The position numbers were made by a program, and so were the translations under genes. A DNA stretch of 64,000 nt from Terebella lapidaria (lineage: Eukaryota; Annelida; Polychaeta; Terebellida; Terebellidae), in assembly GCA_949152475.1 (NCBI GenBank), contig OX424563.1, forward strand, positions 22,541,001 through 22,605,000, read 5' to 3'. Shown here one piece after another: positions 5,384 to 57,364 of this stretch; the first letter of the stretch is position 1; every line of letters starts with the position of its first letter. The notes below the pieces were generated by a model. It saw only the letters and a list, made by a program, of their open reading frames with translations. It made no database searches and was not told the origin of the DNA.

Positions 5384-6815
5384 ATTTTAGGTTACCGGAC
5401 CTATGGTCCGATAACCTATTGGCATGGCGTTGCGTCCGTCGTCCGTCGTCATCCGTCGTCGTCCGTCGTCGTCGTCCACATTTTTATCTTTTTTGTTTAC
5501 GGGCGAATTTTTCTGAAATTTTGCACAAAAATACTTAAAAATAATTCAAGAAGGAGGTATTTTGTAGTTTTTTTATTTTCGCATTTTTTTTTAAAATGGC
5601 GGTCGTTTTTTGACGAAAAATGCCTGATTTTGGACTTTGGCTGTCATTTTCTCAAAATCTGTTCAGTAACTTTTTTTCTTTTTGATACATAACACTCATC
5701 ATATGTACTTCTATGATGCCTATAAATTTCGTTGGGCTTGAATCGCTCGAAGTGGGCCATTTTGGTCCAAACTCGGCCCAAATTTGACTTTCCCATGTTA
5801 AATTCTCCTATGCTTTATAATGGGACACATTATGCCTGATATCTCACTTAATATTAAGATTAGAGACTAGGAATCAATTGTGGACATACATGAAATGATA
5901 TATGCTGAATATTCTCGTGACCTTGAATTTGACCTTTGACCTCTTTTTCAAGGTCACAGGACAAAATAGCTAATATATCTCGCTTATTATCGACTTTACA
6001 GCTTAGGAATCAATTGTGAACATATAGGAAATGATATATGCTGAATATGCTCATGACCTTGAATTTGACCTTTGACCTCATTTTCAAGGTCACAGGACAA
6101 AATGGCCAATTTCTCGCTTATCATCGACCTTACAGCTTAGGAATCAATTGTGGACATATAGGAAATGATATATGCTGAATATTCCGATGGCCTTGAATTT
6201 GACCTTCGACCCCATTTTCAAGGTCATAGGACAAAGTGGCTAATATCTCGCTTGTTATCGACTTTACAGCTTAGGAATCAGGTATGAACATATGGGAAAT
6301 GATATAGGCAAATTAATGCATGACCTTGAATTTGACCTTTGACCTCATTTTCAAGGTCACAGAACAAAATGGCTAATATCTCACTTATTATCGATTTTAC
6401 AGCTTAGGAACCAATTATGGACATATAGGAAATGATATATGCTGAATATTCTGATGACCTTGAATTTGACTTCTGACCTCAATCTCAAGGTCACAGGACA
6501 TAATGGCTCATATCTTGCTCCTCTATTGACTGCATGGCTTGGGAATCAATTGTGGTGATATATAAAATGATATACACTGAATATTTTGATGACCTTGAAT
6601 TTGACCTTTGCCTTCATTTTCAAGACCCCAGCACAAAATTGCTAATATCTCTGATTATTGATTTACAGCTTAGCAATCAACTGTGGACATGATATATGCT
6701 TGATATTATATATGCTGAATATTCTCTTGACCTTGAATTTAACCAGTGACCTGGCTAACATCTAAAATATTAAACATTGTCCGGTAACCTATCTTTGGCC
6801 CTCGGCCTAATTTTT
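5384..6815 (+). mobile_element. GGTTACC-ended tandem-repeat element (HINE/pearl-like), full copy
   Basis: Non-coding element of about 1.43 kb. In order it holds: a 27-nt hairpin at 5390-5416 (arms GGTTACCGGACC and GGTCCGATAACC); a (GTC/CGTC)n microsatellite at 5429-5474; about 370 bp of unique DNA; seven units of about 125-137 bp at roughly 5860-6760, each with GACCTTGAATTTGACC; the inverted end GTCCGGTAACC at 6779-6789, an exact 11-bp match to the left end; a GGCC-CTC-GGCC hairpin at 6797-6807; and a T-tract. Sub-terminal inverted repeats, microsatellite, tandem core and 3' hairpin are the layout of Helentron-associated elements (HINE/DINE/pearl). That assignment is inferred, since no Rep/helicase is present. 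Other copies: 17676-18054, 37285-37615 (minus), 56207-57260. Confidence 0.7.
5860..6760 (+). repeat. Core array of about 125-137 bp units, seven copies
   Basis: Each unit contains TTAGGAATCAATTGTGGACA, a GGAAATGATATATGCTGAAT block, GACCTTGAATTTGACC, CAAGGTCA and GGCTAATATCTCGCTTATTA. The GACCTTGAATT word recurs near 5931, 6056, 6190, 6322, 6457, 6592 and 6729. Units decay toward the right end. Every unit carries two or more AGGTCA half-site words. Confidence 0.75.
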
Positions 6816-6885
6816 CTTTTCAGTTTTAGGATGCTGAACAGTTACTCTAAAAAAAATACCAATTTGAAGCTCTAGATTATGTTGA

Positions 6886-7594
6886 TACAGTTATTCAGTT
6901 TAAAAAAAAACGCTTTGACAATCTCCGCTCACTGTAATATATATATATATGTAATGCAGAAATGTGCACTGTATATTCCGTCAAACGCACGTACTATTGT
7001 AGTTTGTCACGTGAATGCCATAAATTTCCATGAATGGATTCATCATAAGACCCGAGACGAAGGAGACTACCATTCATAAACACGCTATATATTCTTGGGT
7101 TGCATTTGCGAAGCATCAGGACTACGTGAAATGAATCGGACAGCTCTCCTGAGCTATTGCCTGCACCTGATTTGAACATGTGTCTTAATCATTTTCCTTC
7201 TCAGCCGTTCGCTGCAGATGCGAATTAATCTTCGGTTACAACATAATTCAGTTATCTTCATACCATTTAATGCGATCCTGTTTTTGGGTTAAAGCTCAGC
7301 TACACAATCAGCTGTCAAGAAATGATACTAGGCAACTGAACATGCAACTCGGGAAATCGATAACGTATCAAAACCATCCAAATTTAATAACCAGCATAAC
7401 TATTTAAACTAAGGTATCTATTTACCAAGCGAAAGCAAATTCATTTTCGTGGTGCTTATTTATGCTGCTTTGACCTTAAAAAAAAAAATGTTCAGATGTT
7501 AAGGTCATCAGATGAAGTGAAACAGTATCAAGATTCAGTGTATTGACAGATTCACACAGTTTACTCACAATATGAAACCGATCCAAAACCACAC
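6886..7594. other. Intergenic DNA, no gene seen
   Basis: Follows the end of the split 150-bp duplication. Contains a short (TA)n tract near 6940 and an A-run near 7479; otherwise nothing recognised. Confidence 0.4.
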
Positions 7595-10500
7595 GATATT
7601 CCGAGATGTGAAACATGTTTAGTTGTGAATGAATTATGAATATAAAATAATTGATGTATTGATTAGTTTTGGAAGTCACTGTGTCTTGCTTATCTTGCAT
7701 AGCCAGAATTTGACTGGGTTGAGTGTAATCGAGGAGTATTTGGTCGTCTCTTTTGTGCTGACAAAACTGGAGTGTTCGGATTGGGACAGTCAACTCGACC
7801 GTCCAATTGTCGTCGTTCTGAAAAGCTGGTGACAATATAATTCCTGAGCACACGATGCAATTATTTACAGATTATGTCACAATACAACACAGCGTAATGG
7901 CAAGTATTTAAGAAGGAAACGCTCACCATGTTCCTAACTAAAGTCAAACAACTGAAGTCCCACATTGCCAAAACTCATCCGCCAAATTCATAAGCCCCTC
8001 CTTAGAGATGGTGGGCGATAAACAGACATCTGGACGTATGACAGCACCAGCGACGACGAGATTTATTTAATTACGATTTCTAGTTCACGATCTAGTATAT
8101 TGTTATCATTATTAGCAAGCTGGACAACGTATTTTGTCTTCATTATCCCAAAATATTGAGGCTGATCTCACTCGGTTCCCGTGGGTACCCACATAACCTT
8201 CAGTTCTGCTTGTCATATCATCATTCAAGTCATTCGAGGAAAAATCATTTAATATCAAACGCATCAATCATTGACGAACGTCAGTTCTTTGGTATCCACA
8301 TAAGAAAGGAAACCAGCTAACTCAGTCGTCTTATAAAAAGTCAATTGTTTGTTTGGCACAAGATAGTGTAACTTCAAAATTCCTGGAACGGAATTCTCTT
8401 GAGCTAAAAACAGAAGATAAAAACTAGCATTCTGTTGATCTTGAAATTGACAGCTTAATTAAATATTCTGAAAGGGTTCATCACGGACACGTCATACAAC
8501 ATGGTTCGATCGAAACTAAGATGAAACGATGAAAAAATTGTTTGGCTGGACGAAACTTTGATCCCAAAGACAAGAAGGAAAGACACTTACAAGGTAATCT
8601 AAAATGTGATCCCGAAGGGAGGGGAAATCGGTGTCTGGATGGTTCGAATTCGAGACAAAAATGACAATACATCATCAGATATTTCAAGTTCCTTGATAGA
8701 ATAATTTTACACAAAGACAACAGGCAGAACGAGGTTTTTAGTTTTTGAATACTCCAAAGGGCTTTGAACCTCAGAATGAACGCAATGGCGGAAGGAAATT
8801 GGAACACTTTTGCAAAATTTGAATGTATATTTGTGATTGTTCTGTTCGTAAAGGGTATTATAGAAAACGCCGTATCGAATACAACGTTTCCCTCCTGCAT
8901 TATTTTTCATTGCAAAATGCGATCAAGGGCGCTCCATTCTACAATTTCGAGCACTACTCTCACTATTGAGCACGGCCGGCAGATGATTCCAGTAATCGAA
9001 ATCATATACTGATTTATGTGTTCCGACATAAATGTTATCCTGATATTGTCTAAATAGATCCTCATATGGCGGAGATTGACTATGAATCTATGACACAGGC
9101 ATGAGAGAGAGACAAAACCTGTTAGTGTATGTCCTTCCTCCTCCATTTCGTCCTTGAAATGCACTTGCACCTCGAAAATATGCCTGTTTTATTGATGCCA
9201 GATGTGACAGATGTATAGAACGATTGACATTCTCAGAAACACACCCATATATGTGGCCTGACTAACAAAATAGAACTATCGATGAAATATTTGGCATTTC
9301 AAGGCTGTCGTGCCTTTGAATGGCAGGACGCTGATAAGGTATTTTCAGGTCTACAATATGACTTCTGTATCCGTACCGATCGTTGTGTCTGAACCCCCGC
9401 CCTTCCTTGACAGATGTTCCCCAGGTTTTTAACCTCCTGTTAGTATATTGGTTTTATATTCTGGTTTTTATAATGTGGTCGCCTGGGAGGTTAAGAATGA
9501 CCGTATAAAACAAAGCTTACTGGAAACATTCAACATTTAGTATAGTCACCAATTACTCGAATTTCACACTAATAATACACTCGCGCGAGTAGTCTTCGCT
9601 CGTCATGCAAGGTGTCGCAAATGTTTTTAAAGACATTTGAATATTTACTGCGAGTATATCTTTAAAGAATTCTCCTTGTTGTCACAGGTGTAACAGATGC
9701 TCGTTTCGTAGGCATTTCAAACTTCTCAATGTAACCTCTTCCTAATTTGAACCTGCGAGATTTTGAGAGAAATTTGATAACAGAAAGCAATATGAAAAAC
9801 AACTGGACGAGTGTTCCACGACATATAAATGCGAACCCCGGCTCGTCACACTCGCATATGTTGCACAGGACATTCACATAAAATATGTGCGACAATTCCG
9901 TGATATCCGAACAACGTCCACACAAATAATTTTTAAAACTCCTCACTTTTGCACTTAATAATTAACGAAAAATGGAAAGGGTTAAGACGTGTTCGAGACA
10001 TCTTGAAGCCTACGACGACTTTGTAAGTATTCCGTAAGAAGTTGTCACGGATATTCCTTCTTGAAAATCTTGTGACAAATAAGGACACTACACGACTCGT
10101 GCAGGCTCGTAAACCTCGTTCGCAAGTGGTCGCATCCGATATACTTTGCTCAAAGTGATTCACATTCAATGATGTCATTGTTTAGGCAGGAACTACTTCC
10201 TGACTGCCTGTCGTCCCTGGACAATGTGGACGAATACTGCCGGTCTGTAGTGTATACAATGATGAAATAAAATGTATCAATGATTTTATGTATCAACCTA
10301 TTACGAACGATACAAACAGATTTTGATGATGCCAAAAGCAAGCCTAAAATGCAATTTTTGGGAATAAAATCAAAGCCCGGTCAAATATTTACAGCCAAAG
10401 TCCACTGGTGTCCACAGGGAAAGACAATAGGTGAAATATAGTTGTTTCTACTGTACACTTAATGGGATGAGCATACGTTTGCCCAGCAACGTACTAAAAC

Positions 10501-11390
10501 AATTTGTAATTTCGAAACCCTCCAAATATAGTGTGCAAGTACATAAGTACCCATTATAAACTATCTGCGTGTATCAATAAAAATGTATAATTGTAGTCAA
10601 ATCAATGAATGAAAACGGAAATCGGCACATGTGGATTTTTCCCCAAAGCACAAATACAAAGCGAAGCGCACGAGAGTGAATTAGACATTATTATTCATAT
10701 GATCTACATTTCGTCGGTATTCATCATACACCAAACCTGAGCACTTTGAACGAAGACCCACTTCTGCGAAGTTTACTCTTCACAGAACATGACAATTACA
10801 GTATCTATATCTGGTCAACCCCTAAGAGTTTCGAGCAACAAATCAGCATTGATCTGTTATTGATCAGTTTTGTTACTGTAGTTCACTCAGCATTGACAAG
10901 TTCTGGCTGAAGTGCCCTCAAGATTGCAAGGTGTGCTTGAAAAAAGTGCACCCAATATTTATTGTAATGGTGTGAATGTCTCTCAGCGTACTTGTTCACA
11001 GTAATATGTATGTGTGGATACTTTTTTTGTTCTAATTTACTGTTCTAAAAACGCAAAACTCATTAAGCATTTTTTGAATGAGGGTACGATGGAAATTTGA
11101 TTTCGCCTGATACCTTATTACATGCTTACGCCCGATTTCACCCGCAAAGTACGTGAATTTACCTCCCAGTCAGGTACACTCATTCCAACAAGCGATTCAT
11201 GCGTCATTACGTAAATACTGGAACGGTATATCACTCGCAAGTATAAACAGAGCAGGAAGATGCAAGATGGACTGACCACTGACAATTGCATTCTTGTGTG
11301 GTGTGAAATTGCCAAATTTTGCAATTTATGTTGTTTCTACATCCTTAAGTGAAAGACTCTGAAAATAAACTAGACGTCAAAACAGTAGGC
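7595..11390 (+). repeat. Segmental duplication of 3.8 kb, copy 1 (without the later insertions)
   Basis: Aligns throughout to 14738-20770 in the same orientation at roughly 90-95% identity by eye. After subtracting two insertions from copy 2, both copies are about 3.79 kb. Minus-strand open frames at 8907-9170 and 9662-9946 stay open in both copies, but most nucleotide differences change amino acids (5 of about 7, and roughly 16 of about 24), which is what neutral DNA gives. No domain was recognised. It preserves the empty sites for the insertions found at 17271 and 19398. Confidence 0.85.
10285..10560 (+). repeat. Interspersed repeat family S, copy in duplication 1
   Basis: Shares an order of words with 18477-18790 (plus) and, reverse complemented, with 29645-29835, 38985-39260 and 62715-62890. 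The words are GTATCAACCTATTACNA, TTTTGATGATGCCAA, AAAGCCCGGTCAAATA, CCACTGGTGTC and GTTGTTTCTACTGTACAC. It occurs at different places relative to the surrounding units, so it is interspersed rather than part of one array. About 280 bp, non-coding, possibly SINE-like, but I see no clear A/B box or tail. Confidence 0.6.
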
Positions 11391-11698: not shown

Positions 11699-11749
11699 CA
11701 ATCAGAGATTGCAGACCCTCGCCCTTCAGATTTAGTCACTAAAATTAGG

Positions 11750-13140
11750 CGATAATTGAGTTATGGTCTTAAGACCATCGGTTGTACGCCATACGATTGG
11801 GAATTGGCCAAAGAAAAATACAAAAATAGGTTGAAGATTTAATATTGATTAGAACCGGAGTTATAGCCATTTATGTGATTTTCTTTTTTCCGTTGCCATT
11901 GCAACCGTTTTGTGAGCCACTACCATAGCACTGCAGCCCTATAAATTTCAAATCGATCGGACCGTTTGCCTTTGAGTTATGAGCGCAGACATTTGCATTG
12001 AAACGTCGCTGGCCAAAAATAACCAAAATCGTGACCCCCAATTTTTCGACATCGGGCGATAATGGAGAGTTTTCGTCGTACGACCACCGGTCGTACACCA
12101 AACGATCGAGAATTGGCCAAAGAAAAATACAAAATTAGTTGGAAAAATTAATATCAAGTAGAACCGGAGTTACAGCCAATTAAGTGATTTTCACTTTTTC
12201 CGTTGCCATGGCAACTGTTTTCATCCGATTTTGACAAAATTCGAACGGGACCGAGCGATTACCGTAGCACTCCAGCTCTATAAATTTCAGATTTATCAGA
12301 CCGTTTGCCTTTGAGTTATGAGCGTAGACATTTGCATTGAAACGTCGCTAGCAAAAAATAACCGAAATCGTGACCCCCAATTTTTCGACATCGGGCGATA
12401 ATGGAGTTTTCGTTGTACGACCATTGGTCGTACACCATACGATCGCGAATTGGCCAAAGAAAAATACAAAAATATTTGGAAAACTAATATCAAGTAGAAC
12501 CGGAGTTAGAGCCAATTAGGTGATTTTCACTTTTTCCGTTGCCATGGCGACTGTTTTCATCCGATTTTAACAAAATTCGAACGGGACCGAGCGACTACCA
12601 TAGCACACCAGCATTATAAATTTCAGATCGATCAGACCGTTTGCCTTTGAGTTATGAGCGCATTGAAACGTCGCTGGCAAAAAATAACCGAAATCGTGAC
12701 CCCCAATTTTTCGACATCGGGCGATAATGGAGAGTTTTCGTCGTACGACCATCGGTCGTATACCATACGATCGAGAATTGGCCAAAGAAAAATACAAAAA
12801 TAGATGGAAAAATTAATATCAAGTAGAACCGGAGTCACAGCCAATTAAGTGATTTTCACATTTTCCGTTGCCATGGCAACCGTTTTCATCTGACTCTGAC
12901 AAAATTCGAACAGGACCGAGCGACTATCATACTGCTCCAGCTTTAGAAATTTCAGATTGATCGGACCGTTTGCCTTTGAGTTATGAGCGCAGACATTTGC
13001 ACTGAAACGTCGCTGACAAAAAATCACCGAAATCGTGACCCTCAATTTTTCGACATCGGGCGATAATAGAGAGTTTTCGTCGTACGACCATCGGCCGTAC
13101 ACCATAGGGTCGGGAATTGGCCAGAGAAAAATACAAAATT
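11750..13140 (-). repeat. Core tandem array of about 325-345 bp units
   Basis: Landmark GGGCGATAATGGAGAGTTTT with a following TCGTACGACC word recurs near 11750 (degenerate), 12060, 12395, 12720 and 13065. Each unit also has GAATTGGCCAAAGAAAAATA, GTAGAACCGGAGTT, GTTGCCATGGCAAC and TTTGCCTTTGAGTTATGAGC. Identity between the middle units is high, and the outer units are more diverged. Confidence 0.8.
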
Positions 13141-13146
13141 AGTTTA

Positions 13147-13863
13147 AAGTCATAGTAGCAAGGTACCATTATATGGTTTAATTCCTGTTCAGATAAAGGC
13201 ATTGTGGACATTTGGTGATAAAAAAAGATGTTCGCGTTAATTGGTAATTAATAACAGCGACATATAATCAAGTATATTGAGCCAGTATTGCAATCGCCTT
13301 CTCATGCCGATGAAAAAATAGCTTCGGCAGTTTCCGTAATCGTGACGTCAGTTGAGGCAAAATGTGCTTTGATGGCTGGCCAAAAACGTAAAACACGTAA
13401 TTTGGGCGGTCAGCTCAAAGATAGAAAACCACTCCAAAATGCATGAGATTCAAAAGAAAACACGTGAAAACCAACAAATACTGGACATCTTGCAGTTCAA
13501 CAAACCTCCTTTCTGGGAGAATAAATAGTACTGATTCTAAATATCAAGACAAGAAATGCCGTATTCCCACTATCTCACCCGTTCACTTGAATTGTCAAAC
13601 ATACACAATGAGAATGAATATGCGACATGCAGTTTACCTTGCTGGCTACATGTACTTTCAATTCTGCCTCAACTGACGTCACCAACCACGTGACCCATAC
13701 TAAAATCGTGATCAAAATCTTCGGTAATTTACGGAAGGAGTGCCTATTTGATTCAATATCTCGAAACTCATTGATTGTATTTGTAAAATTCGTTCGAATT
13801 TACAGATAACTATTCATAATGGACTAAATGAAAAGCACTTTCATCGGCATGCTACTAGGTCTT
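13147..13863. mobile_element. Foldback MITE nested in the tandem-repeat element
   Basis: Interrupts a core unit: the left flank ends in AAATTAGTT and the right flank resumes AGAAATTAATATTC, contiguous in sister units. The ends are imperfect inverted repeats, AAGTCATAGTAGCA against AAGACCTAGTAGCA, each beside a TA (13145-13146 and 13864-13865), as in Tc1/mariner-type MITEs. Further inverted pairs are exact: CATGCCGATGAAA (13303-13315 with 13839-13851) and GTGACGTCAGTTGAGGCA (13342-13359 with 13665-13682). About 300 bp of unpaired centre remains. No transposase. The TA target and superfamily are inferred. Confidence 0.65.
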
Positions 13864-14144
13864 TAAGAAATTAATATTCATTAGAACTAGAGTTATAGTC
13901 AATTATGTGATTTTCTCTTTTTTCGTTGCCATGGCAACAATTTTTTTCTGATTTTGACAAAAATTGAGGAGGACCGAGCCACGGTGATACCGCTTCTTCC
14001 CTATAAATTTCAGGACGATCGGACCATTCGGTTTTGAGTTATGCGCGCGGACAGACAAACAAACAAACAAACAGACAAACAGACATACAAACTGACAGAC
14101 CCAATTACAATACCCTCTGCCCCTATCGGGGCGAGGGTAATAAC

Positions 14145-17270: not shown

Positions 17271-18313
17271 GTTGAACCGGTAAATGTGAAATCAAATGCT
17301 AAATGTGAAACCTAACGGTAAATGTGAAAACACACTAACGCTAAATGTGAAACCTAACGGTAAATGTGAAACTATGTGCTTGACGCTAAATGTGAAAATA
17401 TATATATAGTTACCACTCACAGTCATCAGACTGGTACGAACAACTAAGAACTACCCTAATCCCGAAATGGATAGCATCGAAATGGATAGCCTGCCCTTCT
17501 CCACTCCCGCCTGGTCGACTGTAGAACCGCTTCTCTCTAGTTCAAATCGGTTCTGCAGGAAAGCAGGTGTTCCCATCACTGATCTGTCTTTTTAGGTTAC
17601 GGTATCTTTGATCTAACAAGCCACAGCATACAAGGAATAGAATGCGTAAGAATATGCCCGGGTGACATGTTTTTAGGTTACCTGACAAAATGAATAATAT
17701 CTCGCTTATTATCGACTTTGTAGCTTAGATATCAATTGTGGACATATAGGAAATGATATATGCTGAACATCCTGATGACCTTGAATTTGACCTCATCTTC
17801 AAGGTCAGAGCACAAAATGGTAATGTCTCTTTTAATATCGACTTTTCAGCTTAGGAATCAATTGTGGACATATAGGAAGTCATATATGCGATATCATCGA
17901 GTTACTAAGTCGGGAATTTCAAAAAATATAATTTTTTCTGGGTGGCCCCGCTACGCTTCCGTAGCCTAGGCCTATACGTTGGCAGTTATTTACATGTCAC
18001 AAGACAATAAATGCCAGTACGCCTAATAACCTAGTTTTGCCCTTGGCCGATTTTTCACATCTACCGTCGTGATTTCTTTTCATATTTACCGTTAAGGGTG
18101 ATTTCCTTAATTTTGACATTTACCGTTAGGTTTCACATTTACCGATAGTGTTTTTTTACATTTATCGTTCGGTTTCACATTTACCGTTGATGTGTTTTCA
18201 CATTTACCGTTAGGTTTCATATTTACCGTTGATGTGTTTTTACATTTACCGTTAGGTTTCACTTTTACTGTTGATTTCACATTTACCGTTGATTTCACAT
18301 TTACCGGTTCAAC
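17271..18313. mobile_element. Foldback transposon with iterated TTTCACATTTACCGTT arms
   Basis: Termini are a perfect inverted repeat beginning GTTGAACCGGTAAATGTG. Left arm 17271-17402 and right arm 18050-18313 consist of repeats of a 16-20 bp motif, GGTAAATGTGAAACCTAAC on the left and its complement on the right. Flanks are GGTCGCAT (17263-17270) and AGTCGCAT (18314-18321), an 8-bp target-site duplication with one mismatch. The paralogous empty site in copy 1 (10126-10140) has the word once. The centre holds unrelated DNA, including a nested GGTTACC-type fragment. Iterated-motif arms with 8-bp duplications recall sea-urchin TU foldback elements; placement in hAT or another superfamily is inference. 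No transposase seen. Confidence 0.8.
17676..18054 (+). mobile_element. GGTTACC-ended element, short nested copy
   Basis: Begins GGTTACCTGAC (17676-17686), carries about two core units with ATCAATTGTGGACATATAGG and GACCTTGAATTTGACC, and ends in ATAACC, a GCCCTTGGC hairpin and a T-tract (18031-18054). It lies inside the foldback at 17271-18313, so it was either captured or inserted there. It has lost the 5' hairpin and microsatellite of the full copy at 5384. Confidence 0.65.
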
Positions 18314-18476
18314 AGTCGCATCCGATGTACTCTGCTCAAAGTGATTCACATTCAATGATGTCATTGTTTAGGCAGGAACTACTTCCTGACTGCCTGTCGT
18401 CCCTTGGTCAATGTGGACGAATACTACTGGTCTGTAGTGTATACAGTGATGAAATAAAATGTATCGATAATTCTAT

Positions 18477-29835: not shown

Positions 29836-29928
29836 ACAATCCCGAGAAAATTTTCGCAAAGTCCGAGTGGCTTTTAACAATAGTTTTAGATTTCTGATGG
29901 GTTATGACCGGAGATGTAGTGCCAGTGG

Positions 29929-37284: not shown

Positions 37285-37615
37285 AAAAAAAAAATTAGCC
37301 CAAGGGCTAAAAAAGGTTACCAGACAACATATATATTAGATATTAGACTTCGTCCCATCACCTTGAAAATAAGGTCATTGGTCAATTCAAGGTCATGAGA
37401 ATATTCATATTTCTAGTATGTCCACAATCGATTCCTAAGCTGTAAACTCGACAATAAGTGAGATATTAGCCATTTTGTTCTCTGACCTTGAAAATGAGAT
37501 CGAAGGTCAAATTCAAGGTCACCAAAATATTCAGTATATATAATTTCCTATATGTTCACTATGGATTCCTAAGCTGTTAAGTCGATAATAAGCATGATAT
37601 AAACCAAGGCTGTAA
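37285..37615 (-). mobile_element. GGTTACC-ended element, inverted 3' fragment
   Basis: Reverse orientation of the family at 5384. On the plus strand it reads an A-tract, a TTAGCCCAAGGGCTAA palindrome (37295-37310), GGTTACCAGAC (37315-37325), then about two core units with CAAGGTCATGAGAATATTCA and ATCGATTCCTAAGCTGTAAA. The 5' hairpin and microsatellite are missing. Confidence 0.65.
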
Positions 37616-40442: not shown

Positions 40443-42880
40443 AAAAAATCGGCCATAGGCCAACACTTGACGAAATATCTACACATTTGTTTATTTACAT
40501 TTAAAACATTTACTCATAATTTACACATTGAAAATATTTACTGAACAACTAGCATTAGAAATTGACACATTTAAGACACCTCCTGAGCATCACCCAGCAG
40601 TAGAATTCACAATTTTAGAAATTAGACAAGAGTTGCTTCATTTACACAGTGACCTTGGCCTTAATACTTGTCCCTGAATTCTGAATTTTCAAAAATTTGT
40701 TAGAATTAATAATGCACAACTCCTGAGCAGACATACATATTGAAATTTTATGACGTCTCCTGAGCAAGACCCAGCCATTTGAGACTGACTCATTTAAAAC
40801 ATCCAATCGATGTGTGTATCAACATAGTATATACTACTAACAGCACAAAATTTTGATGATGTCAATATAAAAAAAATCATAAAATACAGTATTGCTATTA
40901 ATGTTCGTTACTACAACTTGGTAACTTTCATATCATGATGCTGCATCTTTGGAGAACCATCTAATGAATTCAAGCAGATCGTGATGGCCGTTTTTGTATG
41001 CCATACTGGTATTATATGACAGAGGCGACGACAATTTTCGCACGACATAATGCCCATATTCCTACCAAATGATCATTCAACAGTGTATATTATTAATATA
41101 TCATAACACATTGCAAAAAGTTCTTGGATAACCGCTATAATAGATTATAATGGTACTGGATATTCTAAAAAAAAACAAAGAGCAAAAAAAATATTTACCA
41201 GCAGGTAGATTCGAACCCACAGAGTCAACAGCCTACGTGTTAGAGAGCGAGCACTGTAACCACTCGGCCACCGAGCCATCATACAACTTGTTGCCGTATT
41301 CCCTTCCCCATTGTGAACAACTTTTACTGTACATGTATGACCGCATGCATGTCGGCATGACTGCACGAAGAAATCGATCCCAAAATAACTGTAACTTTAT
41401 AACCCAAACTAATATTGATAACCAACTTTCACAGTCAACTCAATTGGAGAATTAGAGCAAGAAAAGTCCACATTTCATATTTGTGTATTCAAATCTGCAT
41501 AAAACATTTCATATTTCCTATAAATTGGCAACTTATGTTAGGTAATTTTGCGGCCACTACTCTAGGGCTACAACTATGCAGCTTGCACATGACCCCCAGA
41601 TTTTCGGCATCGGGCGATAATCGGGAGTTTTGGTCGTACGACCATCGCACATACACCATTTGAAGCCGAATTGACCATACAAAAATACAAAAATACTGAC
41701 AAAAATTAATGTTGATCGAAAGTGGAGTTATTGCGATTTTTCGATTTTGACCTTTTACATGACCTTGACCTCAATTTTCGACCTTGAGTTAAGAAACTCC
41801 ACAGATTTGTTCAATTTTATAAGGCACAACTCTTGAGTAAAAATCAATAACACATATCAGAACCTGGCCTCGCAATATGGGGTTGAAGTTGCGAGACATG
41901 AAACCATAAAATCAAGACCCTCGAATTTTTGACCCGGACCGAAAATCGGCAATTTTGGTCGTACGACCATCGGGCATGCACCACAGGACGTGGAATTGAC
42001 CATAAAAAAATATAAAAATACTCACAAAAATTAACATTGAATAGAAACGGAGTTATTGCGATTTTTCGATTTTGACCTTTACTATGACTTTAACTGTAAT
42101 TCTTGATCTTGAGTCCTACACCTTTACACATATGTTCAGTGTGATAAGACACACCTACTGATTAAAAATCAGCAACTTATATTGGATTTTGACTCCACAA
42201 TAACGGTTTGAATATTGCACAAAATACAAATGATCTCAAAACCCCCAAATTTTCGACCTTGGGCGATAATCGGTAGTTTTGGTCGTACAACCATCGGACA
42301 TACGTCAGCTGATGTCGAATTGACCAAATAAAAATACAAAAATGTTTAAAAAAATTAATTTTGATCAGAAGCGAAGTTATTGCGATTTTTCGATTTTGAC
42401 CTTTACTATGACCTTAACGCTAATTCTTGACCTTGAGTCCTATAACTTCACAATCGTGTTTTGTGTGATAAGGCACAACTTCTGAGTAAAAATCAGGAAC
42501 ATCTATCGGGAACTTGCTCTATTATATGGTTTTGAATATTGTGAGGCAGGAAAAACCTAAATTCGTGACCCCCAAATTTTCGACCTGGACCGGAAATCGG
42601 GAGTTTTGGTCATACGACCATCGGGCATGCATCATATGATGCGGAATTGACCATAGAAAAAAATAAAAATACCTAGAAAAAATAATATTGATTAAAAACG
42701 GAGTTATTGCGATTTTTCGATTTTGACCTTTTCCTTGACCTTGACCTCAGTTTTTGACCTTGACCTCCCAAAAGTTAATCACTTGGTCGAGTACTAATTG
42801 CACGTCTTCTGACAAATTTTCGGGACTTTACGATCAAAATTGTGACCTGTAGAGCGCTAACAAACAAACAAACAAACAAA
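40443..42880 (-). mobile_element. ACTTGACGAAAT-ended tandem-repeat element E6
   Basis: Minus-strand element with its 3' terminus at the left: AAAAATCGG followed by the hairpin GGCC-ATA-GGCC and ACTTGACGAAAT. Going right it holds the arm DNA with a tRNA-like module (41197-41279), four core units of about 325 bp with GGTCGTACGACC or variants, and a GCGCTAACAAACAAAC microsatellite at the 5' side. The palindromic 5' terminus is lost. It is nearly identical to E2 at an offset of 7.58-7.60 kb, apart from a TAATACT repeat expansion in E2, so the two derive from a recent duplication. Confidence 0.7.
41197..41279 (-). ncRNA. tRNA-like Pol III module (tRNA-derived SINE head), copy 1
   Basis: The minus strand has an A-box-like TGGCCGAGTGG (41260-41270) and a B-box-like GGTTCGAATCT (41207-41217) about 43 bp apart, followed by a T-run (A-run on plus at 41184-41191) that could terminate Pol III. 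Spacing suggests a tRNA with a long variable arm (Leu/Ser type). Acceptor and T-stem pairing is poor when folded by eye, so it is a pseudogene or SINE head rather than a working tRNA. The same module sits in E3 and E2 at the same place, so it was amplified with the host element. Confidence 0.6.
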
Positions 42881-43539
42881 TAATTTACACATTTAAACAT
42901 GTACACAAAATTTACACATTGAAATCATTTCCTGAACAACCGCTAGCATTAGAAATCGAGATATTTAAGCCATCTCCTGAACATCATCCAGCAGTATAGT
43001 CTACAATTTAAGACATTAGACGTGAGAGTTGCTTCATTTTCACCGTGACCTTGGCCTTAATTCTTGACCTTGAGGTCTGAAATTTCAAACTTTTGTTGGA
43101 ATTGATGAGGCACAACTCCTGAGTACAAATCATAAAAAAAGATATTGAAACTTGGTTAAAAAACATAGTCTAAAACGTTGGGATCCCCAAAAACGAAAAT
43201 CTTGACCCCCGAATTTTCGACCTCTGTTGCAAATCGGCAGTTTTGGTCGTACGGCCATCAGACATACATCATATGATAGGGAATTGACCAAATAAAATTA
43301 CAATAATACTTAGAAAAATTAGACTTGATTAGGAGCGGAGTTATTGCAATTATTCGATTTTGACCTTTTCATTGACCTTGACCTCAATTTTCGACCTTGA
43401 CCTCCCAAAAGTGAACTCATCCGTCATATGTTGACTGTGCATCTTACGACCAGTTTTCATGATTCTGGAATCAAAATTGTGACCTCTAGAGCGCTAACAA
43501 ACAAACATACATTGTATATTCATCTGATCGACATGCAGT
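42881..43539 (-). mobile_element. ACTTGACGAAAT-ended element E5 (short, 3'-truncated)
   Basis: Near-identical tandem partner of E4, about 98% by eye. It contains one arm and one core unit (GGTCGTACGGCC at 43245), then GCGCTAACAAACAAACATAC and a CATCTGATCGACATGCAG tail unique to E4 and E5. It joins E6 inside the CAAA microsatellite, which is a likely recombination point. Confidence 0.65.
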
Positions 43540-44240
43540 AAAATCGGCCATAGGCCAACACTTGACGAAATAATTTACACATTTGTTTACATTTAAACAT
43601 GTACACAAAATTTACACATTGAAATCATTTCCTGAACAACCCCTAGCATTAGAAATCGAGATATTTAAGCCATCTCCTGAACATCATCCAGCAGTATAGT
43701 CTACAATTTTAGACATTAGACGTGAGAGTTGCTTCATTTTCACCGTGACCTTGGCCTTAATTCTTGACCTTGAGGTCTGAAATTTCAAAGTTTTGTTGGA
43801 ATTGATGAGGCACAACTCCTGAGTACAAATCATAAAAAAAAAGATATTGAAACTTGGTTAAAAAACATAGTCTAAAACGTTGGGATCCCCAAAAACGAAA
43901 ATCTTGACCCCCGAATTTTCGACCTCTGTCGCAAATCGGCAGTTTTGGTCGTACGGCCATCAAACATACATCATATGATAGGGAATTGACCAAATAAAAT
44001 TACAATAATACTTAGAAAAATTAGACTTGATTGGGAGCGGAGTTATTGCAATTATTCGATTTTGACCTTTTCATTGACCTTGACCTCAATTTTCGACCTT
44101 GACCTCCCAAAAGTGAACTCATCCGTCATATGTTGATTGTGCATCTTACTACCAGTTTTCATGATTCTGGAATCAAAATTGTGACCTCTAGAGCGCTAAC
44201 AAACAAACATACATTGTATATTCATCTGATCGACATGCAG
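43540..44240 (-). mobile_element. ACTTGACGAAAT-ended element E4 (short)
   Basis: Starts with AAAATCGGCCATAGGCCAAC and ACTTGACGAAAT, then about 650 bp duplicated from or to E5. It lacks the tRNA-like module and the 5' palindrome. Confidence 0.65.
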
Positions 44241-44976
44241 TAAAATCGGCCATAGGCCAACACTTGACGAATTAACTAAACATTTGTTTACATTTAAAAC
44301 ATTTACTCATTAATTACACATTGAAAAGATATACTGAACAACTTCTAGCATTAGGAATTGGCACTTTTAAGACACCTCCTGAGCATCACCCAGCAGAAGA
44401 ATTCTCAATTTTAGAAATTAGACAAGAGTTGCTTCATTTTCACAGTGACCTTGGCCCTTGAATTCTGAATTTTCACAAATTTGTTAGAATTAATAATGCA
44501 CAACTCCTGAGCAGACATACATATTGAATCTTTATGACGTCTCCTGAGCAAGACCCAGCCATTTGAGACTGACTCATTCAAAACATTCAATCGATGTGTG
44601 TATCAACATAATATATACTACTAACAGCACAAAATTTTGATGATGTCAATATAAGAAAAATTATAGAATACAACACTGCTATAAATGTTCGTTACTACAA
44701 CTTGGTAACTTTCATATCATGATGCTGCATCTTCGGAGAACTATCTAATGAGTTCAAGCAGATCGTGATGGCCGTTTTTGCATGCCATACTGGTATTATA
44801 TGACAGAGGCAACGATAATTTTTGCACGCCATATTAGTACCAAATGATCATTCAACAGTGTATATTCATAATATATCAAAACAAATTGCAAAAAGTTCTT
44901 GGATAAAACCACTATAATAGATTATAATAGTACTGGATATTCTTGAAAAAAATAAAGAGCAAAAAAAAAATATTTA

Positions 44977-45059
44977 AAAGCAGGTAGATTCGAACTAGCA
45001 GAGTCAAAAGCCTACGTGTTAGAGAGCGAGTGCTGGAACCACTCGGCCACCGAGCCATC
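44977..45059 (-). ncRNA. tRNA-like Pol III module, copy 2
   Basis: A box at 45039-45049 is intact; the B box at 44986-44996 reads AGTTCGAATCT on the minus strand, one change from copy 1. Surrounding bases differ at several positions, in line with E3 being the older arm. Confidence 0.5.
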
Positions 45060-45401
45060 ATGCAATAAATTGCCATATTCCCCTTCCCCATGGAGAACAA
45101 CATTTACTGTACATGTATGACCGCATGCATGTCGGCATGACTGCACGAAGAAATCGATCCAAAATAACTGTAACTTTAAAACCCAAACTAGTATTGATAA
45201 CCAACTTTCACAGTCAACTCAATTGGGGAATTAGGGCAAGAAAAGTCCACGTTTCACATTTGTGTATTCAAATCTGCATAAAACATTTCATATCTCCTAT
45301 AAATTGGCAACTTATGTGAGGTAATTTTGCGGCCACTACACTAGGGCTACCACTATGCAACTTGCACATGACCCCCAGATTTTCGGCACCGGGCGATAAT
45401 C

Positions 45402-46869
45402 GGGACTTTTGGTCGTACGACCATCGCACATACACCATTTGACGCCGAATTAACCATATAAAAATACAAAAATACTGACAAAAATTAATGTTGATCAAAA
45501 GTGGAGTTATTGCGATTTTTCGATTTTGACCTTTTACATGACCTTGACCTTAATTTTCAACCTTGAGTTAAGAAACTCCACAGATTTGTTCAATTTGATA
45601 AGGCACAACTCCTGAGTAAAAATCAATAACCCATATCAGAAATTGGCCTCGCAATATGGGGTTGAAGGTTGCGAGACATGAAACCATAAAATCATGACCC
45701 TCAAATTTTCGACCTGGACCGAAAATCGGGACTTTTGGTCGTACGACCATCGCACATACACCATTTGACGCCGAATTAACCATATAAAAATACAAAAATA
45801 CTGACAAAAATTAATGTTGATCAAAAGTGGAGTTATTGCGATTTTTCGATTTTGACCTTTTACATGACCTTGACCTTAATTTTCAACCTTGAGTTAAGAA
45901 ACTCCACAGATTTGTTCAATTTGATAAGGCACAACTCCTGAGTAAAAATCAATAACCCATATCAGAAATTGGCCTCGCAATATGGGGTTGAAGGTTGCGA
46001 GACATGAAACCATAAAATCATGACCCTCAAATTTTCGACCTGGACCGAAAATCGGGACTTTTGGTCGTACGACCATCGCACATACACCATTTGACGCCGA
46101 ATTAACCATATAAAAATACAAAAATACTGACAAAAATTAATGTTGATCAAAAGTGGAGTTATTGCGATTTTTCGATTTTGACCTTTTACATGACCTTGAC
46201 CTTAATTTTCAACCTTGAGTTAAGAAACTCCACAGATTTGTTCAATTTGATAAGGCACAACTCCTGAGTAAAAATCAATAACCCATATCAGAAATTGGCC
46301 TCGCAATATGGGGTTGAAGGTTGCGAGACATGAAACCATAAAATCATGACCCTCAAATTTTCGACCTGGACCGAAAATCGGGACTTTTGGTCGTACGACC
46401 ATCGCACATACACCATTTGACGCCGAATTAACCATATAAAAATACAAAAATACTGACAAAAATTAATGTTGATCAAAAGTGGAGTTATTGCGATTTTTCG
46501 ATTTTGACCTTTTACATGACCTTGACCTTAATTTTCAACCTTGAGTTAAGAAACTCCACAGATTTGTTCAATTTGATAAGGCACAACTCCTGAGTAAAAA
46601 TCAATAACCCATATCAGAAATTGGCCTCGCAATATGGGGTTGAAGGTTGCGAGACATGAAACCATAAAATCATGACCCTCAAATTTTCGACCTGGACCGA
46701 AAATCGGGACTTTTGGTCGTACGACCATCGCACATACACCATTTGACGCCGAATTAACCATATAAAAATACAAAAATACTGACAAAAATTAATGTTGATC
46801 AAAAGTGGAGTTATTGCGATTTTTCGATTTTGACCTTTTACATGACCTTGACCTTAATTTTCAACCTTG
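45402..46869 (-). repeat. Identical 326-bp tandem units (about 4.5 copies)
   Basis: The palindrome GGTCGTACGACC recurs at 45411, 45737, 46063, 46389, 46715 and 47041, exactly 326 bp apart, and the intervening sequence appears base-for-base identical from about 45402 to 46869. The next unit then carries a few changes (GTTGAGAAACT, TTCCATTTG, ACTCGTGAG). The surrounding core units in the same element differ by 10% or more, so this block is freshly amplified or homogenised. Confidence 0.9.
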
Positions 46870-48001
46870 AGTTGAGAAACTCCACAGATTTGTTCCATTT
46901 GATAAGGCACAACTCGTGAGTAAAAATCAATAACCCATATCAGAAATTGGCCTCGCAATATGGGGTTGAAGGTTGCGAGACATGAAACCATAAAATCATG
47001 ACCCTCAAATTTTCAACCTGGACCGAAAATCAAGAGTTTTGGTCGTACGACCATCGGGCATGCACCACAGGGCGCGGAATTGACCATAAAAAAATATAAA
47101 AGTACTCAGAAAAAATAACATTGAATAGAAACGGAGTTATTGCGATTTTTCGATTTTGACCTTTACTATGACTTTAACTGTAATTCTTGATCTTGAGTCC
47201 TACATTTTTACACATATGTTCAGTATGATAAGACACACCTACTGATTAAAAATCAGCAACTTCTATCGGATTCTGACTGCACAATAACGGTTTGAATATT
47301 GCACAAAATACAAATGATCTGAAAACCCCCAAATGTTCAACCATGGGCGATAATCGGGAGTTTTGGTCGTACAACCATCGGACATACGTCAGCTGATGTC
47401 GAATTGACCAAATAAAAATACAAAAATGTTCAGAAAAATTAATTTTGATCAAAAGCCAAGTTAATGCAATTTTTCGATTTTGACCTTTACTATGACCTTA
47501 ACTCTAATCCTTGACCTTGAGTCCTATAACTTCACAATCGTGTTTTGTGTGATAAGGCACAACTTCTGAGTAAAAATCAGCAACATATATCGGGAATTTG
47601 CTCTATAATATGGTTTTGAATATTGCGAGGTAGAAAAAAACCTAAATTCGTGACCCCCAAATTTTCGACCCGGACCGAAAATCGGGAGTTTTGGTCGTAC
47701 GACCATCGGGCATGCATCATATGATGCGGAATTGACCATAGAAAAATATAAAAATAGCTAGAAAAAATAACATTGATTAAAAACGGAGTTATCGCAATTT
47801 TTCGATTTTGACCTTTTGCTTGACCTTGACCTCAATTTTTGACCTTGACCTCCCAAAAGTTAATCACTTGGTCGAGTACTGACTGCACAACTTCTGACAA
47901 ATTTTCAGCACTCTACGATCAAAATTGTGACCTGTAGAGCGCTAACAAACAAACAAACAAACAAACAAACAAACAGACAGACAAACGCAACTGACCAACA
48001 T

Positions 48002-48028
48002 ACTTGACGAAATTTAATTTCGTCAAGT
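48002..48028. repeat. Perfect 27-nt palindrome at element terminus
   Basis: Arms ACTTGACGAAATT and AATTTCGTCAAGT around a single T. Identical copies at 50517-50543, 52787-52813 and 52860-52886 mark the 5' ends of E2 and E1. Half of it (ACTTGACGAAAT) is the opposite sub-terminal repeat of each element. Confidence 0.85.
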
Positions 48029-48796
48029 AAAAATCGGCCATAGGCCAACACTTGACGAAATATCTACACATTTGTTTATTTACATTTAAAACATTTACTC
48101 ATAATTTACACATTGAAAATATTTACTGAACAACTAGCATTAGAAATTGACACATTTAAGACACCTCCTGAGCATCACCCAGCAGTAGAATTCACAATTT
48201 TAGAAATTAGACAAGAGTTGCTTCATTTACACAGTGACCTTGGCCTTAATACTTAATACTTAATACTTGGTCCCTGAATTCTGAATTTTCAAAAATTTGT
48301 TAGAATTAATAATGCACAACTCCTGAGCAGACATACATATTGAAATTTTATGACGTCTCCTGAGCAAGACCCAGCCATTTGAGACTGACTCATTTAAAAC
48401 ATCCAATCGATGTGTGTATCAACATAGTATATACTACTAACAGCACAAAATTTTGATGATGTCAATATAAAAAAAATCATAAAATACAGTATTGCTATTA
48501 ATGTTTGTTACTACAACTTGGTAACTTTCATATCATGATGCTGCATCTTTGGAGAACCATCTAATGAATTCAAGCAGATCGTGATGGCCGTTTTTGTATG
48601 CCATACTGGTATTATATGACAGAGGCGACGACAATTTTCGCACGACATAATGCCCATATTCCTACCAAATGATCATTCAACAGTGTATATTATTAATATA
48701 TCATAACACATTGCAAAAAGTTCTTGGATAACCGCTATAATAGATTATAATGGTACTGGATATTCTAAAAAAAAACAAAGAGCAAAAAAAATATTT

Positions 48797-48879
48797 ACCA
48801 GCAGGTAGATTCTAACCCACAGAGTCAACAGCCTACGTGTTAGAGAGCGAGCACTGTAACCACTCGGCCACCGAGCCAT
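48797..48879 (-). ncRNA. tRNA-like Pol III module, copy 3 (B box mutated)
   Basis: Same as copy 1 except that the B-box core TTCGAAT is changed to TTAGAAT at 48807-48817. The A box at 48860-48870 is intact. The hit on the most critical B-box base suggests this copy is a weaker Pol III promoter. Confidence 0.5.
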
Positions 48880-50469
48880 CATACAACTTGTTGCCGTATT
48901 CCCTTCCCCATTGTGAACAACTTTTACTGTACATGTATGACCGCATGCATGTCGGCATGACTGCACGAAGAAATCGATCCCAAAATAACTGTAACTTTAT
49001 AACCCAAACTAATATTGATAACCAACTTTCACAGTCAACTCAATTGGAGAATTAGAGCAAGGAAAGTCCACATTTCATATTTGTGTATTCAAATCTGCAT
49101 AAAACATTTCATATTTCCTATAAATTGGCAACTTATGTTAGGTAATTTTGCGGCCACTACTCTAGGGCTACAACTATGCAACTTGCACATGACCCCCAGA
49201 TTTTCGGCATCGGGCGATAATCGGGAGTTTTGGTCGTACGACCATCGCACATACACCATTTGACGCCGAATTGACCATACAAAAATACAAAAATACTGAC
49301 AAAAATTAATGTTGATCGAAAGTGGAGTTATTGCGATTTTTCGATTTTGACCTTTTACATGACCTTGACCTTAATTTTCGGCCTTGAGTTAAGAAACTCC
49401 ACAGATTTGTTCAATTTTATAAGGCACAACTCTTGAGTAAAAATCAATAACACATATCAGAACCTGGCCTCGCAATATGGGGTTGAAGTTGCGAGTCATG
49501 AAACCATAAAATCAAGACCGTCGAATTTTTGACCCGGACCGAAAATCGAGAATTTTGGTCGTACGACCATCGGGCATGCACCACAGGACGTGGAATTGAC
49601 CATAAAAAAATATAAAAATACTCACAAAAATTAACATTGAATAGAAACGGAGTTATTGCGATTTTTCGATTTTGACCTTTACTATGACTTTAACTGTAAT
49701 TCTTGATCTTGAGTCCTACACCTTTACACATATGTTCAGTGTGATAAGACACACCTACTGATTAAAAATCAGCAACTTATATTGGATTTTGACTCCACAA
49801 TAACGGTTTGAATATTGTACAAAATTCAAATGATCTCAAAACCCCCAAATGTTCGACCTTGGGCGATAATCGGGAGTTTTGGTCGTACAACCATCGGACA
49901 TACGTCAGCTGATGTCGAATTGACCAAATAAAAATACAAAAATGTTTAGAAAAATTAATTTTGATCAGAAGCGAAGTTATTGCGAATTTTCGATTTTGAC
50001 CTTTACTATGACCTTAACGCTAATTCTTGACCTTGAGTCCTATAACTTCACAATCGTGTTTTGTGTGATAAGGCACAACTTCTGAGTAAAAATCAGGAAC
50101 ATCTATCTGGAACTTGCTCTATTATATGGTTTTGAATATTGTGAGGCAGGAAAAACCTAAATTCGTGACCCCCAAATTTTCGACCTGGACCGGAAATCGG
50201 GAGTTTTGGTCATACGACCATCGGGCATGCATCATATGATGCGGAATTGACCATAGAAAAATATAAAAATACCTAGAAAAAATAACATCGATTAGAAACT
50301 GAGTTATTGCGATTTTTCGATTTTGACCTTTTCCTTGACCTTGACCTCAGTTTTTGACCTTGACCTCCCAAAAGTTAATCACTTGGTCGAGTACTAATTG
50401 CACATCTTCTGACAAATTTTCGGGACTTTACGATCAAAATTGTGACCTGTAGAGCGCTAACAAATAAAC

Positions 50470-50500
50470 AAACAAACAAACAAACAAACAGACAGACAAA
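50470..50500. repeat. (CAAA)n(CAGA)n microsatellite
   Basis: Part of the 5' region of element E2. Homologous tracts are at 42855-42877 (E6), 47945-47990 (E3) and 52710-52770 with 52814-52845 (E1). All precede CGCAACTGACCAACAT and the terminal palindrome where these are kept. Confidence 0.8.
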
Positions 50501-50543
50501 CGCAACTGACCAACATACTTGACGAAATTTAATTTCGTCAAGT

Positions 50544-52886
50544 AAAAATCGGCCATAGGCCAACACTTGACGAAATGACTAAACATTTGTTTACATTTAA
50601 AACATTTACCCATAATTTACACATTGAAAAGATTTACTGAACAACTCCTCGACATTTGAAGAAAGATACTTTTTTCATGAAATTTTTACGTTGGGCAAAC
50701 TTTTCAAGGTCAAGGTCAAAGTGCACATTCAAGGTCAGCGGACAAAGACCTTTTGATATGCTACAATATGGTCCCAGTTTGAACTTTCTATGACGAATAG
50801 TTCCGAAGTTATGGCAATTTTCTGTGATTTTGACCTTTTCTTTGACCTTGATCTTGACCCTTGACCTTGGGTCACGAAAACTGTGCATTGCCCGTGCATG
50901 AAGATATAAATTATACTTGAACAATTCCATCAGAATCGAACAAGAATTCCGGACACTGTGGCTTTTCGAAATTTCGAAAAATTTACGTACATGAGGTCAC
51001 TGTGACGTCAATAAACGTCACATTTGAAAACTGATGGGAAACTATTTATCATGGGTTCAAGGCCTTCCATTTGATATATTACTTGATACCTTTTAGTTAG
51101 TTTGAAAATTTGACCTTGAAGTTTTGCTCATGTGACCTCATTTTTCCGATCCAGTTCAAGGTTAATCATGGAATTGACATATAAGTCTGATTGCTATACC
51201 TCTTCTGAATGATATGGTTCAAATTTTATGAGACTACAACGATTCAAACAGATGTTATAACCGAAAGGGTGTTTTTCTGGGATTTCAATGACCTTGACCT
51301 TGACCTTTGACCTTTGTATTTCAATTTTTAAAGGTCAATGCTATTAATATGCATGTCAAGTTTCAAGGTATTCCATACAGTATTGACGCTGTTATGGCCT
51401 TTTGAAATTTCGGTACTTTGACGTTTATGACGTCATTGTGACGTCAGTGTACGTCGCAGCGCCGAAAATAGGGCATCACTGCAATCAATGGCTCAAAACC
51501 TTTCCAACGATATACTAATCGATATGGTGCGATGACCTTCGTATTTGACCTTGACATTCACCTTAGGCGAACTTCTCAAGGTCAAGATCAAATGCCAAGG
51601 CCAAGGTCACAGAAGATAGGACTCGAGTTTATCTACAATATGAACTTGGTTTGAAGTCTCTATAACAAATAGAACCGAAGTTATGGCCACTGATGTGTTT
51701 TTAACATTTTGCGTGACCTTGACCTTGATCTTTGACCTTGAGTCACGAAAATTGTGCATTGCCTGTGCATGAAGACATATATTATAAATGTGTAATTTCA
51801 TAATATTCAAACAAGATTTGTGGACACTACGACCGTTTGAAATTTCGGAAAATTAACGTTTATGACGTCACTGTGACGTCAATAAACGTCACATCTCAAA
51901 ACTGATGAGACATTATGTACCAGGCAATCAAGACCTTTCATTTGATATACTACTTGATAGGTTTCAGTTAGTTTGAAAATTTGACCTTGAAGTTTTCCTC
52001 ATATGACCTTATTTTCCTGACCAAGTTCAAGGTCAATCATGAAATTGACATATACGCCCGATTGCTATACCTCTTCTGAATGATATGGTTCAAATTTCAT
52101 GAACCTACGACAATTCAAACGGATCTTATTACCGGAAACGTGTTTTTCTAGGATTTCGATGACCTTGACCTTGACCTTTGACCTTTGTACTTAAATTCGT
52201 AGAGGTCATTGCTGTCAATATGCATATCAAGTTTCAAGAGATTCCATACAGTATTAACGATGTTATGGCCTTTTGAAATTTCGGAAATTTGACGTTTATG
52301 ACGTCATTGTGACGTCAGTTTACGTCGCAGCGCCAAAAATAAGGTATCACTGGAATCAGGGGGTCAAGACCTTTCCAACGATATACTACTCGATATGGTG
52401 CGCTGACATTCGTACTTGACCTTGACATTCACCTTATGGCGAACTTCTCAAGGTCAAGGTCAAATGTCAATGTCAAGGTCACAGAAGATAGAACTCAAGT
52501 ATATCTACAACATGAACTTAGTTTGATGTCTCTAGGACAATTAGAACCGGAGTTATGGCCATTTATGTGTTTTTGACGTTTTGCGTGACCTTGAACTCAA
52601 TATTTGACCTTGACCTCCCAAAAATGAACTCATCCATCTGTATTTGATTGCACATCTTCTGACCTATTTGCATGATTCTACGATCAAAATTGTGACCTGT
52701 GGAGCGCTAACACACAAACAAACACACAAACAAACAAACAAACAAACAAACAAACAAACAGACAGACAAACGCGACTGACCAACATACTTGACGAAATTT
52801 AATTTCGTCAAGTAACAAACAAACAAACAGACAGACAGACAAACGCAACTGACCAACATACTTGACGAAATTTAATTTCGTCAAGT
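50544..52886 (-). mobile_element. ACTTGACGAAAT-ended tandem-repeat element E1 (variant core)
   Basis: Shares both termini with E2: the GGCC-ATA-GGCC hairpin (50551-50561), ACTTGACGAAAT (50565-50576), the (CAAA)n microsatellite and the palindrome. From about 50640 the core is different: two direct copies of about 865 bp with paired TGACGTCA sites and long TGACCTTGACCTTTGACCT runs. The 5' terminal block (microsatellite plus palindrome) is itself duplicated (52787-52813 and 52860-52886). AGAACCGGAGTTATGGCC near 52547 links this core to the other families. Confidence 0.7.
50992..52317. promoter_or_regulatory. Paired CRE-like TGACGTCA sites among AGGTCA runs
   Basis: TGACGTCA pairs start 11 bp apart at 51428/51439, 51863/51874 and 52299/52310, with a degenerate first partner (TGAGGTCA, 50992) beside the intact site at 51003. 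They recur about every 425-436 bp and are embedded in AAGGTCA / TGACCTTTGACCT runs. Eight-base palindromes of this type are the known CREB/ATF consensus, and AGGTCA direct repeats are nuclear-receptor half-sites. That any factor binds here is inference. Confidence 0.4.
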
Positions 52887-57350: not shown

Positions 57351-57364
57351 TAATCAGTGGAAAC

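Follow-up and report, generated by a model that had tools for sequence, protein, structure and literature searches.

Probable non-autonomous Helentron-type elements in an annelid genome: two families with a common body and different ends

A stretch of 64,000 nucleotides from the polychaete Terebella lapidaria (contig OX424563.1 of assembly GCA_949152475.1, positions 22,541,001 to 22,605,000 of the forward strand; hereafter the window) holds several repetitive elements with similar layouts and different termini, which raises the question of what class of mobile element they are and how elements with unlike ends can be related. An earlier note had described three families as unrelated and as built on one architecture. 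We refer to them here as family A (complete element A1), family B (a sole copy) and family E (six units, E1 to E6, head to tail at 40444-52886 and read on the minus strand), and three more family-A pieces (A2, A3 and A4) are added to the elements first listed. Our analysis indicates that the three families are very probably non-autonomous Helentrons (HINEs), gene-less elements that would depend for copying on a Rep-helicase encoded by an autonomous Helentron elsewhere. Judged from the sequence, this assignment appears to have good support in A and E and fair support in B, the weaker case; it is made because of the layout, the TT before 5/5 outer 5' ends, the empty site of A1 and the lack of a Rep or helicase domain. 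The part order is ordinary for the class and already described, and the point of interest here is a common body with different ends.

Read in its sense direction, a family-E unit consists of the palindrome ACTTGACGAAATTAAATTTCGTCAAGT, a (TTTG)n tract, a tandem core (unit 324-326 bp, 436 bp in E6), ATTTCGTCAAGT, GGCCTATGGCC and GATTTTT, and A1 is laid out in the same order (Table 1). The end palindromes of the element families are AGGTTACCGGAC (A1), ACCCTCGCCCC and ACTTGACGAAAT. The subterminal inverted repeats, which in HINEs measure about 11-15 bp at both ends, pair at 12/12 positions in A1, E5 and E6, at 11/12 in E4 and at 10/10 in B; A2, A3, E1, E2 and E3 are each without one end, and the repeats of A4 are degenerate. 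Microsatellite and tandem core occur together in A1, B, E4, E5 and E6, a core is present in E1, and E2 and E3 are short. At the 3' side, GGCC-N3-GGCC with a T tract was found in A1, E1 and E3-E6, and a 4-bp all-GC stem with a 3-nt loop and TTTT occurs at 0.05% of positions with the elements counted in. The earlier statements that two families have the same type of 3' hairpin, and that two of the three carry a T tract, hold at the level of sequence for A1 and E. That all six E units follow the full order proved true of the three that keep both ends (E4, E5 and E6); E1 is without the palindrome, E2 is without the hairpin, and E2 and E3 have another 5' end.

The layout was compared with shuffled sequence in two scans, both designed once the elements were known, so that the shuffle numbers are somewhat favourable. 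The strict scan, which required TT, a palindrome of 10 bp (one mismatch allowed), its exact inverted copy 300-6000 bases downstream, a hairpin and TTTT, matched only A1 and E in the window and none of 3000 dinucleotide-preserving shuffles, and a chance origin of the layout was rejected for these two. The looser scan again returned the A1 and E families, with a match in 299 of 4410 shuffles, and the strict scan without the T tract gave one extra match at ~25.7-26.3 kb with a GGCGGCCGCC hairpin (7/3000 shuffles match). B was found by neither scan. When folding was compared with 200 shuffles, none was as good as the 5' palindromes of A1, B and E and three were as good as that of A2; the 5' ends of A4 and of E2/E3 did not fold. 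A stem like that of the B 3' hairpin (perfect 5 bp, 3-nt loop, starting within 10 nt) occurs at 2.2% of positions; the tail of B does stand out by fold energy (2/200 shuffles equal it), and we regard this hairpin as moderate evidence. Overall, the common architecture stands for A1 and the E array, both matched by the strict scan, and fits B less, with its bulged palindrome, missing T tract and fair hairpin.

The flank of A1 is tandemly duplicated, and its unfilled copy (5153..5304, plus strand) represents the empty site. The alignment of this copy with the joined left (5303-5388) and right (6816-6880) flanks shows a one-base gap and a few substitutions around the join and places the insertion within a T run with no duplication beyond Ts; because of the T run, a T-only duplication is indistinguishable from the element's own Ts. 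TT precedes all five outer 5' ends (A1, A2, A4, B and the E array), an outcome of ~1.3e-5 at the base rate of 0.105 per site, although the A4 end is putative and degenerate and could be dropped from the count. The extra 5' end of E6 likewise follows TT, and the units behind intact E junctions follow four or five Ts. No empty site for E or B was found within the window. The expectation that these elements sit at T/T sites was accordingly upheld at the outer 5' ends and at the A1 empty site, with A4 putative and the 3' end of B not fixed. Ordinary miniature inverted-repeat transposable elements, moved by cut-and-paste and having terminal inverted repeats and a short T-rich target duplication, would also show inverted repeats at both ends, and the two flank alignments of A1 do overlap by TTTT. 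However, the 3' repeats are subterminal, lying 25 nt (A1) and 21 nt (E) from the end, the 5' palindrome is one-sided, no constant target repeat save T was seen at the ends examined, and neighbouring E units have a single T tract in common. We therefore consider such elements very unlikely and retain the assignment to non-autonomous Helentrons.

A Pfam scan of the 24 window open reading frames of at least 100 aa found no Rep or helicase domain in any of them; four gave weak matches to unrelated families, none above the curated cut-off. In the mechanism that we propose, an enzyme would nick at T/T beside the 5' palindrome, one strand would be displaced while being copied, copying would end once the 3' hairpin and T tract are reached, and the displaced strand would be inserted into T-rich DNA, leaving the target unduplicated. 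Of this scheme, we observe the part order, T/T ahead of the 5' ends, a single empty site and a closer likeness of the E units in their termini than in their bodies; we infer that copying proceeds by rolling circle and which enzyme carries it out. Several points weigh against the assignment. The fold energy of the 3' tails is not distinct (36, 24, 53 and 14 of 200 shuffles equal those of A1, A3, A4 and E, respectively), B has no T tract after its 3' hairpin, and the non-palindromic 5' ends of E2 and E3 are unexplained by the HINE model. Moreover, no autonomous partner was seen among the reading frames scanned, and the single empty site, being in a T run, leaves room for a short T-only duplication.

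Table 1 Elements of families A, B and E and their parts in the window (positions are those of the window).
Feature	Position	Strand	Description and evidence
A1	5389..6815	+	Complete family-A element, AGGTTACC ends; layout scan, end repeats, empty site
A1 5' palindrome	5389..5417	+	AGGTTACCGGAC...GTCCGATAACCT, 3-nt loop; DNA fold -9.6 kcal/mol, 0/200 shuffles equal it
A1 microsatellite	~5433-5477	+	(GTC)n-type
A1 tandem core	5868..6752	+	134-bp unit, TGACCT-rich
A1 3' subterminal repeat	6779..6790	-	Perfect inverted copy of 5389-5400
A1 3' hairpin	6797..6815	+	GGCC-CTC-GGCC (6797-6807), then TAATTTTT; 36/200 tail (37-nt) shuffles fold equally well
A2	56211..57260	+	5' part of family-A element; right limit approximate
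A3	37291..37606	-	3' part of family-A element, hairpin AGCCC-TT-GGGCT and T tract
A4	~17594..18055	+	Degenerate family-A element nested in foldback (17271-18314); 5' end putative, does not fold
B	11699..14138	-	Sole family-B copy
B 5' palindrome	14112..14138	-	One unpaired base (bulged); DNA fold -12.1 kcal/mol, 0/200 shuffles equal it
B microsatellite	14050..14100	-	(TTTG)n tract
B tandem core	11914..13144	-	339-bp unit, homologous to E core, no AGGTCA
B 3' subterminal repeat	11715..11724	-	GGGCGAGGGT
B 3' hairpin	11699..11711	-	CAATC-TCT-GATTG; 3' end of element putative; 2/200 tail shuffles fold equally well
E6	50544..52886	-	Both ends, duplicated 73-bp 5' end, distinct 436-bp core
E5	48029..50543	-	Both ends
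E4	44242..48028	-	Both ends (3' repeat one mismatch), longest core
E3	43540..44241	-	Short, non-palindromic 5' end
E2	42883..43539	-	98.5% like E3, 3' hairpin missing, non-palindromic 5' end
E1	40444..42882	-	98.4% like E5, 5' palindrome missing
tRNA-like stretches	~41205-41277 (E1), 44984-45056 (E4), 48805-48877 (E5)	-

As to how the families are related, the earlier description of three unrelated families does not hold, since B and E have a common body. With its nested insert removed, B is collinear with E4 at 62.5% identity over 1694 columns (E 4e-115), the alignment running from nt 31 to nt 1662 of the 1721 nt of B, that is, to 59 nt before its 3' end, and starting at nt 26 of E4. With the insert kept, nt 998-2381 of B match E4 at 62.2% (E 5e-100); as a control, the best match of B among 200 Markov versions of E4 had an E value of 0.28. 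The 5' part of the B/E4 comparison scored 162, against 20 +/- 7 for 100 shuffles. The two families are alike from the microsatellite inwards and nothing is alike before it; in the first 12 nt, compared ungapped, 2 positions match. The last 250 nt of B against E4 score 25, at the shuffle level (22 +/- 7), as is to be expected because E4 runs on past the shared part with more monomers and ~1.1 kb. On these alignments, the most likely origin of B and E is a single ancestral body, made up of microsatellite, 5' segment and core array, that bears two end sets, and this suggests that element ends can be exchanged. Weighing against this reading, the extra monomers and the ~1.1 kb of E4 (nt 2661-3787) are unmatched in B, so the 3' difference exceeds the terminus. 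The nested insert itself, of ~0.7 kb at ~13145-13866 in the B core, has short inverted ends (CTAGTAGC/GCTACTA) and TTTAA-like border repeats.

A common body without any exchange of ends would also result if B and E had taken up the same satellite independently. Tandem cores are widespread in such elements, and published models allow satellite capture (PMC7492417). The 5' segment of B is itself a degenerate monomer of B's own core (68-77% identity), and the 3' part of E is without a counterpart in B, both of which favour such capture. Nevertheless, the satellites stand in the same orientation and in the same starting phase directly behind (TTTG)n, and the alignment is collinear from its first positions in B and E4, so we hold independent capture to be possible but doubtful. 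Alternatively, the termini could be derived from a common ancestor through point changes, and a body only 62% identical does mean that a long time has elapsed; but 2 matches in the first 12 nt lie under the 62% of the body, and the E units vary less at their termini than in their bodies, which makes simple divergence unlikely.

Descent from one body with exchanged ends remains our preferred reading, and family E presents the converse case. The first 45 nt are identical in E4, E5 and the outer 5' end of E6 (45/45; 44/45 for the inner E6 end), and the last 40 nt of E6 agree with those of E4/E5 at 37 of 39-40 positions. The 5' module of E6 is only 76-80% identical to the E4 and E5 modules, and the cores are largely different apart from a common ~70-bp block at 72-79%. 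In E6, the junction of the additional 73-bp 5' end lies precisely at a (TTTG)nTT. Since B and E have a common body and differing ends, and E6 and E4/E5 have common ends and differing bodies, exchange in both directions is suggested, with the 5' border at the microsatellite in both cases.

The subterminal repeats do not match across families and are perfect partners within A1, B, E5 and E6. In family A, the pair of A1 is AGGTTACCGGAC/GTCCGGTAACCT, and A2 has AGGTTACCAGAC where A3 has GTCTGGTAACCT, a change matched on both sides; A2 and A3 are two separate incomplete copies, and the local 5' arm of A2 is still GTCCGATAACCT. Tentatively, the ends may be exchangeable cassettes with the microsatellite as 5' joint, and the repeats may be recognised by mutual pairing, not by sequence. 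If pairing is what counts, a single enzyme that reads hairpin and T tract could act on ends whatever their sequence. One machinery serving several end families is possible on this sequence evidence; the 3' tail type GGCC-N3-GGCC-(T)NATTTTT common to A1 and E and the body common to B and E both lean that way. The original argument, that unrelated termini with a common part order suggest one machinery, is unsupported as made, because families with different subterminal inverted repeats (subTIRs) in one genome have already been published, and differing subTIRs per genome are the published rule.

The E array raises the further question of whether its units were made together. Read-through rolling-circle copying in one event would account for the head-to-tail order and for the exact junctions, GATTTT(T)|ACT, at 4/5 places (the fifth, E2/E1, is broken, and its breakpoint was placed by eye in TTT), as well as for the 98.5% identity of the adjacent E2 and E3. 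One such burst is expected to leave equally similar units. In contrast, the 5' modules of the six units are 75 to 98.5% identical (1.5-25% apart), the E6 core is different, and the other close pair, E1 and E5 (97% alike in the 5' module, 98.4% overall), are not neighbours. A single event is therefore quite unlikely, and most likely the array grew stepwise from copies of different age; repeated joining of separate copies at the T tract, with later duplication (E2/E3), would fit the unequal units better. E1, E4 and E5 also hold a tRNA-like stretch in the element's sense direction (GGCTCGGTGGCCGAGTGGTT...GTTCGAATC; GTTAGAATC in E5), with motifs that we take to be A- and B-box-like. A captured tRNA gene was rejected, with no call there by ARAGORN or Rfam. 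Rfam microRNA matches in E were discarded because they score below the gathering thresholds and lie across the two duplicated palindromes (52787-52886) and over an AGGTCA-rich core segment.

An AGGTCA-rich core had been ascribed to all three families, which is correct for A1 and E and wrong for B. AGGTCA and TGACCT together occur 21 times in A1 (14.7 per kb), at 5.6-16.2 per kb in the six E units and not at all in B; the densities are 0, 15.8 and 6.4 per kb in A2 (no core seen), A3 and A4, and the remaining 45.9 kb of the window outside the elements contain 8. Comparison of the family-A core with E gave short weak matches only (best E 2e-4, minus strand), mostly in AGGTCA-rich stretches. E6 (50544-52886) is filled with AGGTCA half-sites, 16 per kb, which resemble nuclear-receptor sites.

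The window is rich in repeats and holds others besides these elements. A2 is broken at ~56477-57115 by a long imperfect inverted-repeat element with tandem GCGTTCCCTCGCAATC-like units, and a foldback at 60403-61147, with 20-bp units AATACGCGTACTTAATATTA, resembles this insert. A segmental duplication (7598-11358 / 14733-20732) comprises two main blocks ~91-93% identical and a short third block at 86%. The foldback at 17271-18314 sits in its second copy between direct repeats GTCGCAT, with an empty site in the first copy; a core common to this foldback and family A is accounted for by the nested A4. Repeated diverged segments (~59-84% identical) at 22126-39262 and 57345-63616 are perhaps a gene cluster.

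The exact family-E end pattern had 0 matches in the viral_contigs and genome_contigs collections (one pattern each). Literature searches with four end strings returned no mobile-element paper, judged by title, and a search for AGGTCA with mollusc and tandem-repeat terms returned nothing on topic, judged by listing. With respect to known systems, the published description of HINEs is matched here, as had been proposed, since the part order, the TT sites and the A1 empty site agree with it (PMC7492417, PMC4067079). As in the HINE-Mo and Helentron families of mites, mosquitoes and flies, including DINE-1, the elements have palindromic subTIRs, a putative 3' stem-loop and a T-rich target with a variable number of Ts and no target modification (PMC4067079). 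In that work, Thomas et al. assign elements to one family when at least 11 bp of their subTIRs are identical, and they report seven Helentron and HINE families in one mite; autonomous partners with the ends of the HINEs are present in the mite, mosquito and fly cases, whereas no such partner was seen here in the window open reading frames of at least 100 aa. The bivalve pearl elements CvA, CvE and CvG and DTC84 are likened to ours by description only, having an architecture with central repeats (PMC7492417, PMC11136912).

The closest comparison is with the Cg_HINE elements of the Pacific oyster (Vojvoda Zeljko et al., PMC7492417), which have a left flank of subTIR, inverted repeat and microsatellite, a satellite-like core, a right flank of subTIR and palindrome, and insertion at TT or T-rich sites without target duplication. 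Several families occur in that genome as well (eleven Cg_HINE elements, some unrelated in every module), and no autonomous element could be related to them either. Unlike their monomers, which average 140-180 bp, those found here measure 324-339 bp in B and E1-E5, 436 bp in E6 and 134 bp in A1. The oyster elements fall into groups with all modules related, with flanks related and repeats unrelated, or with nothing related, and a given repeat cluster goes with one flank pair; here, in contrast, one core type goes with two end sets (B and E). Related repeats with unrelated ends lie outside these three groups and were not found in a narrow literature search. If ends and bodies are indeed exchanged at the microsatellite, this would offer part of an explanation for the spread of satellite-like repeats through genomes on a large number of elements that look unrelated, and for the difficulty of pairing non-autonomous elements with autonomous partners in the oyster; the question would become whether the enzyme recognises the subterminal repeats by sequence or solely by pairing.

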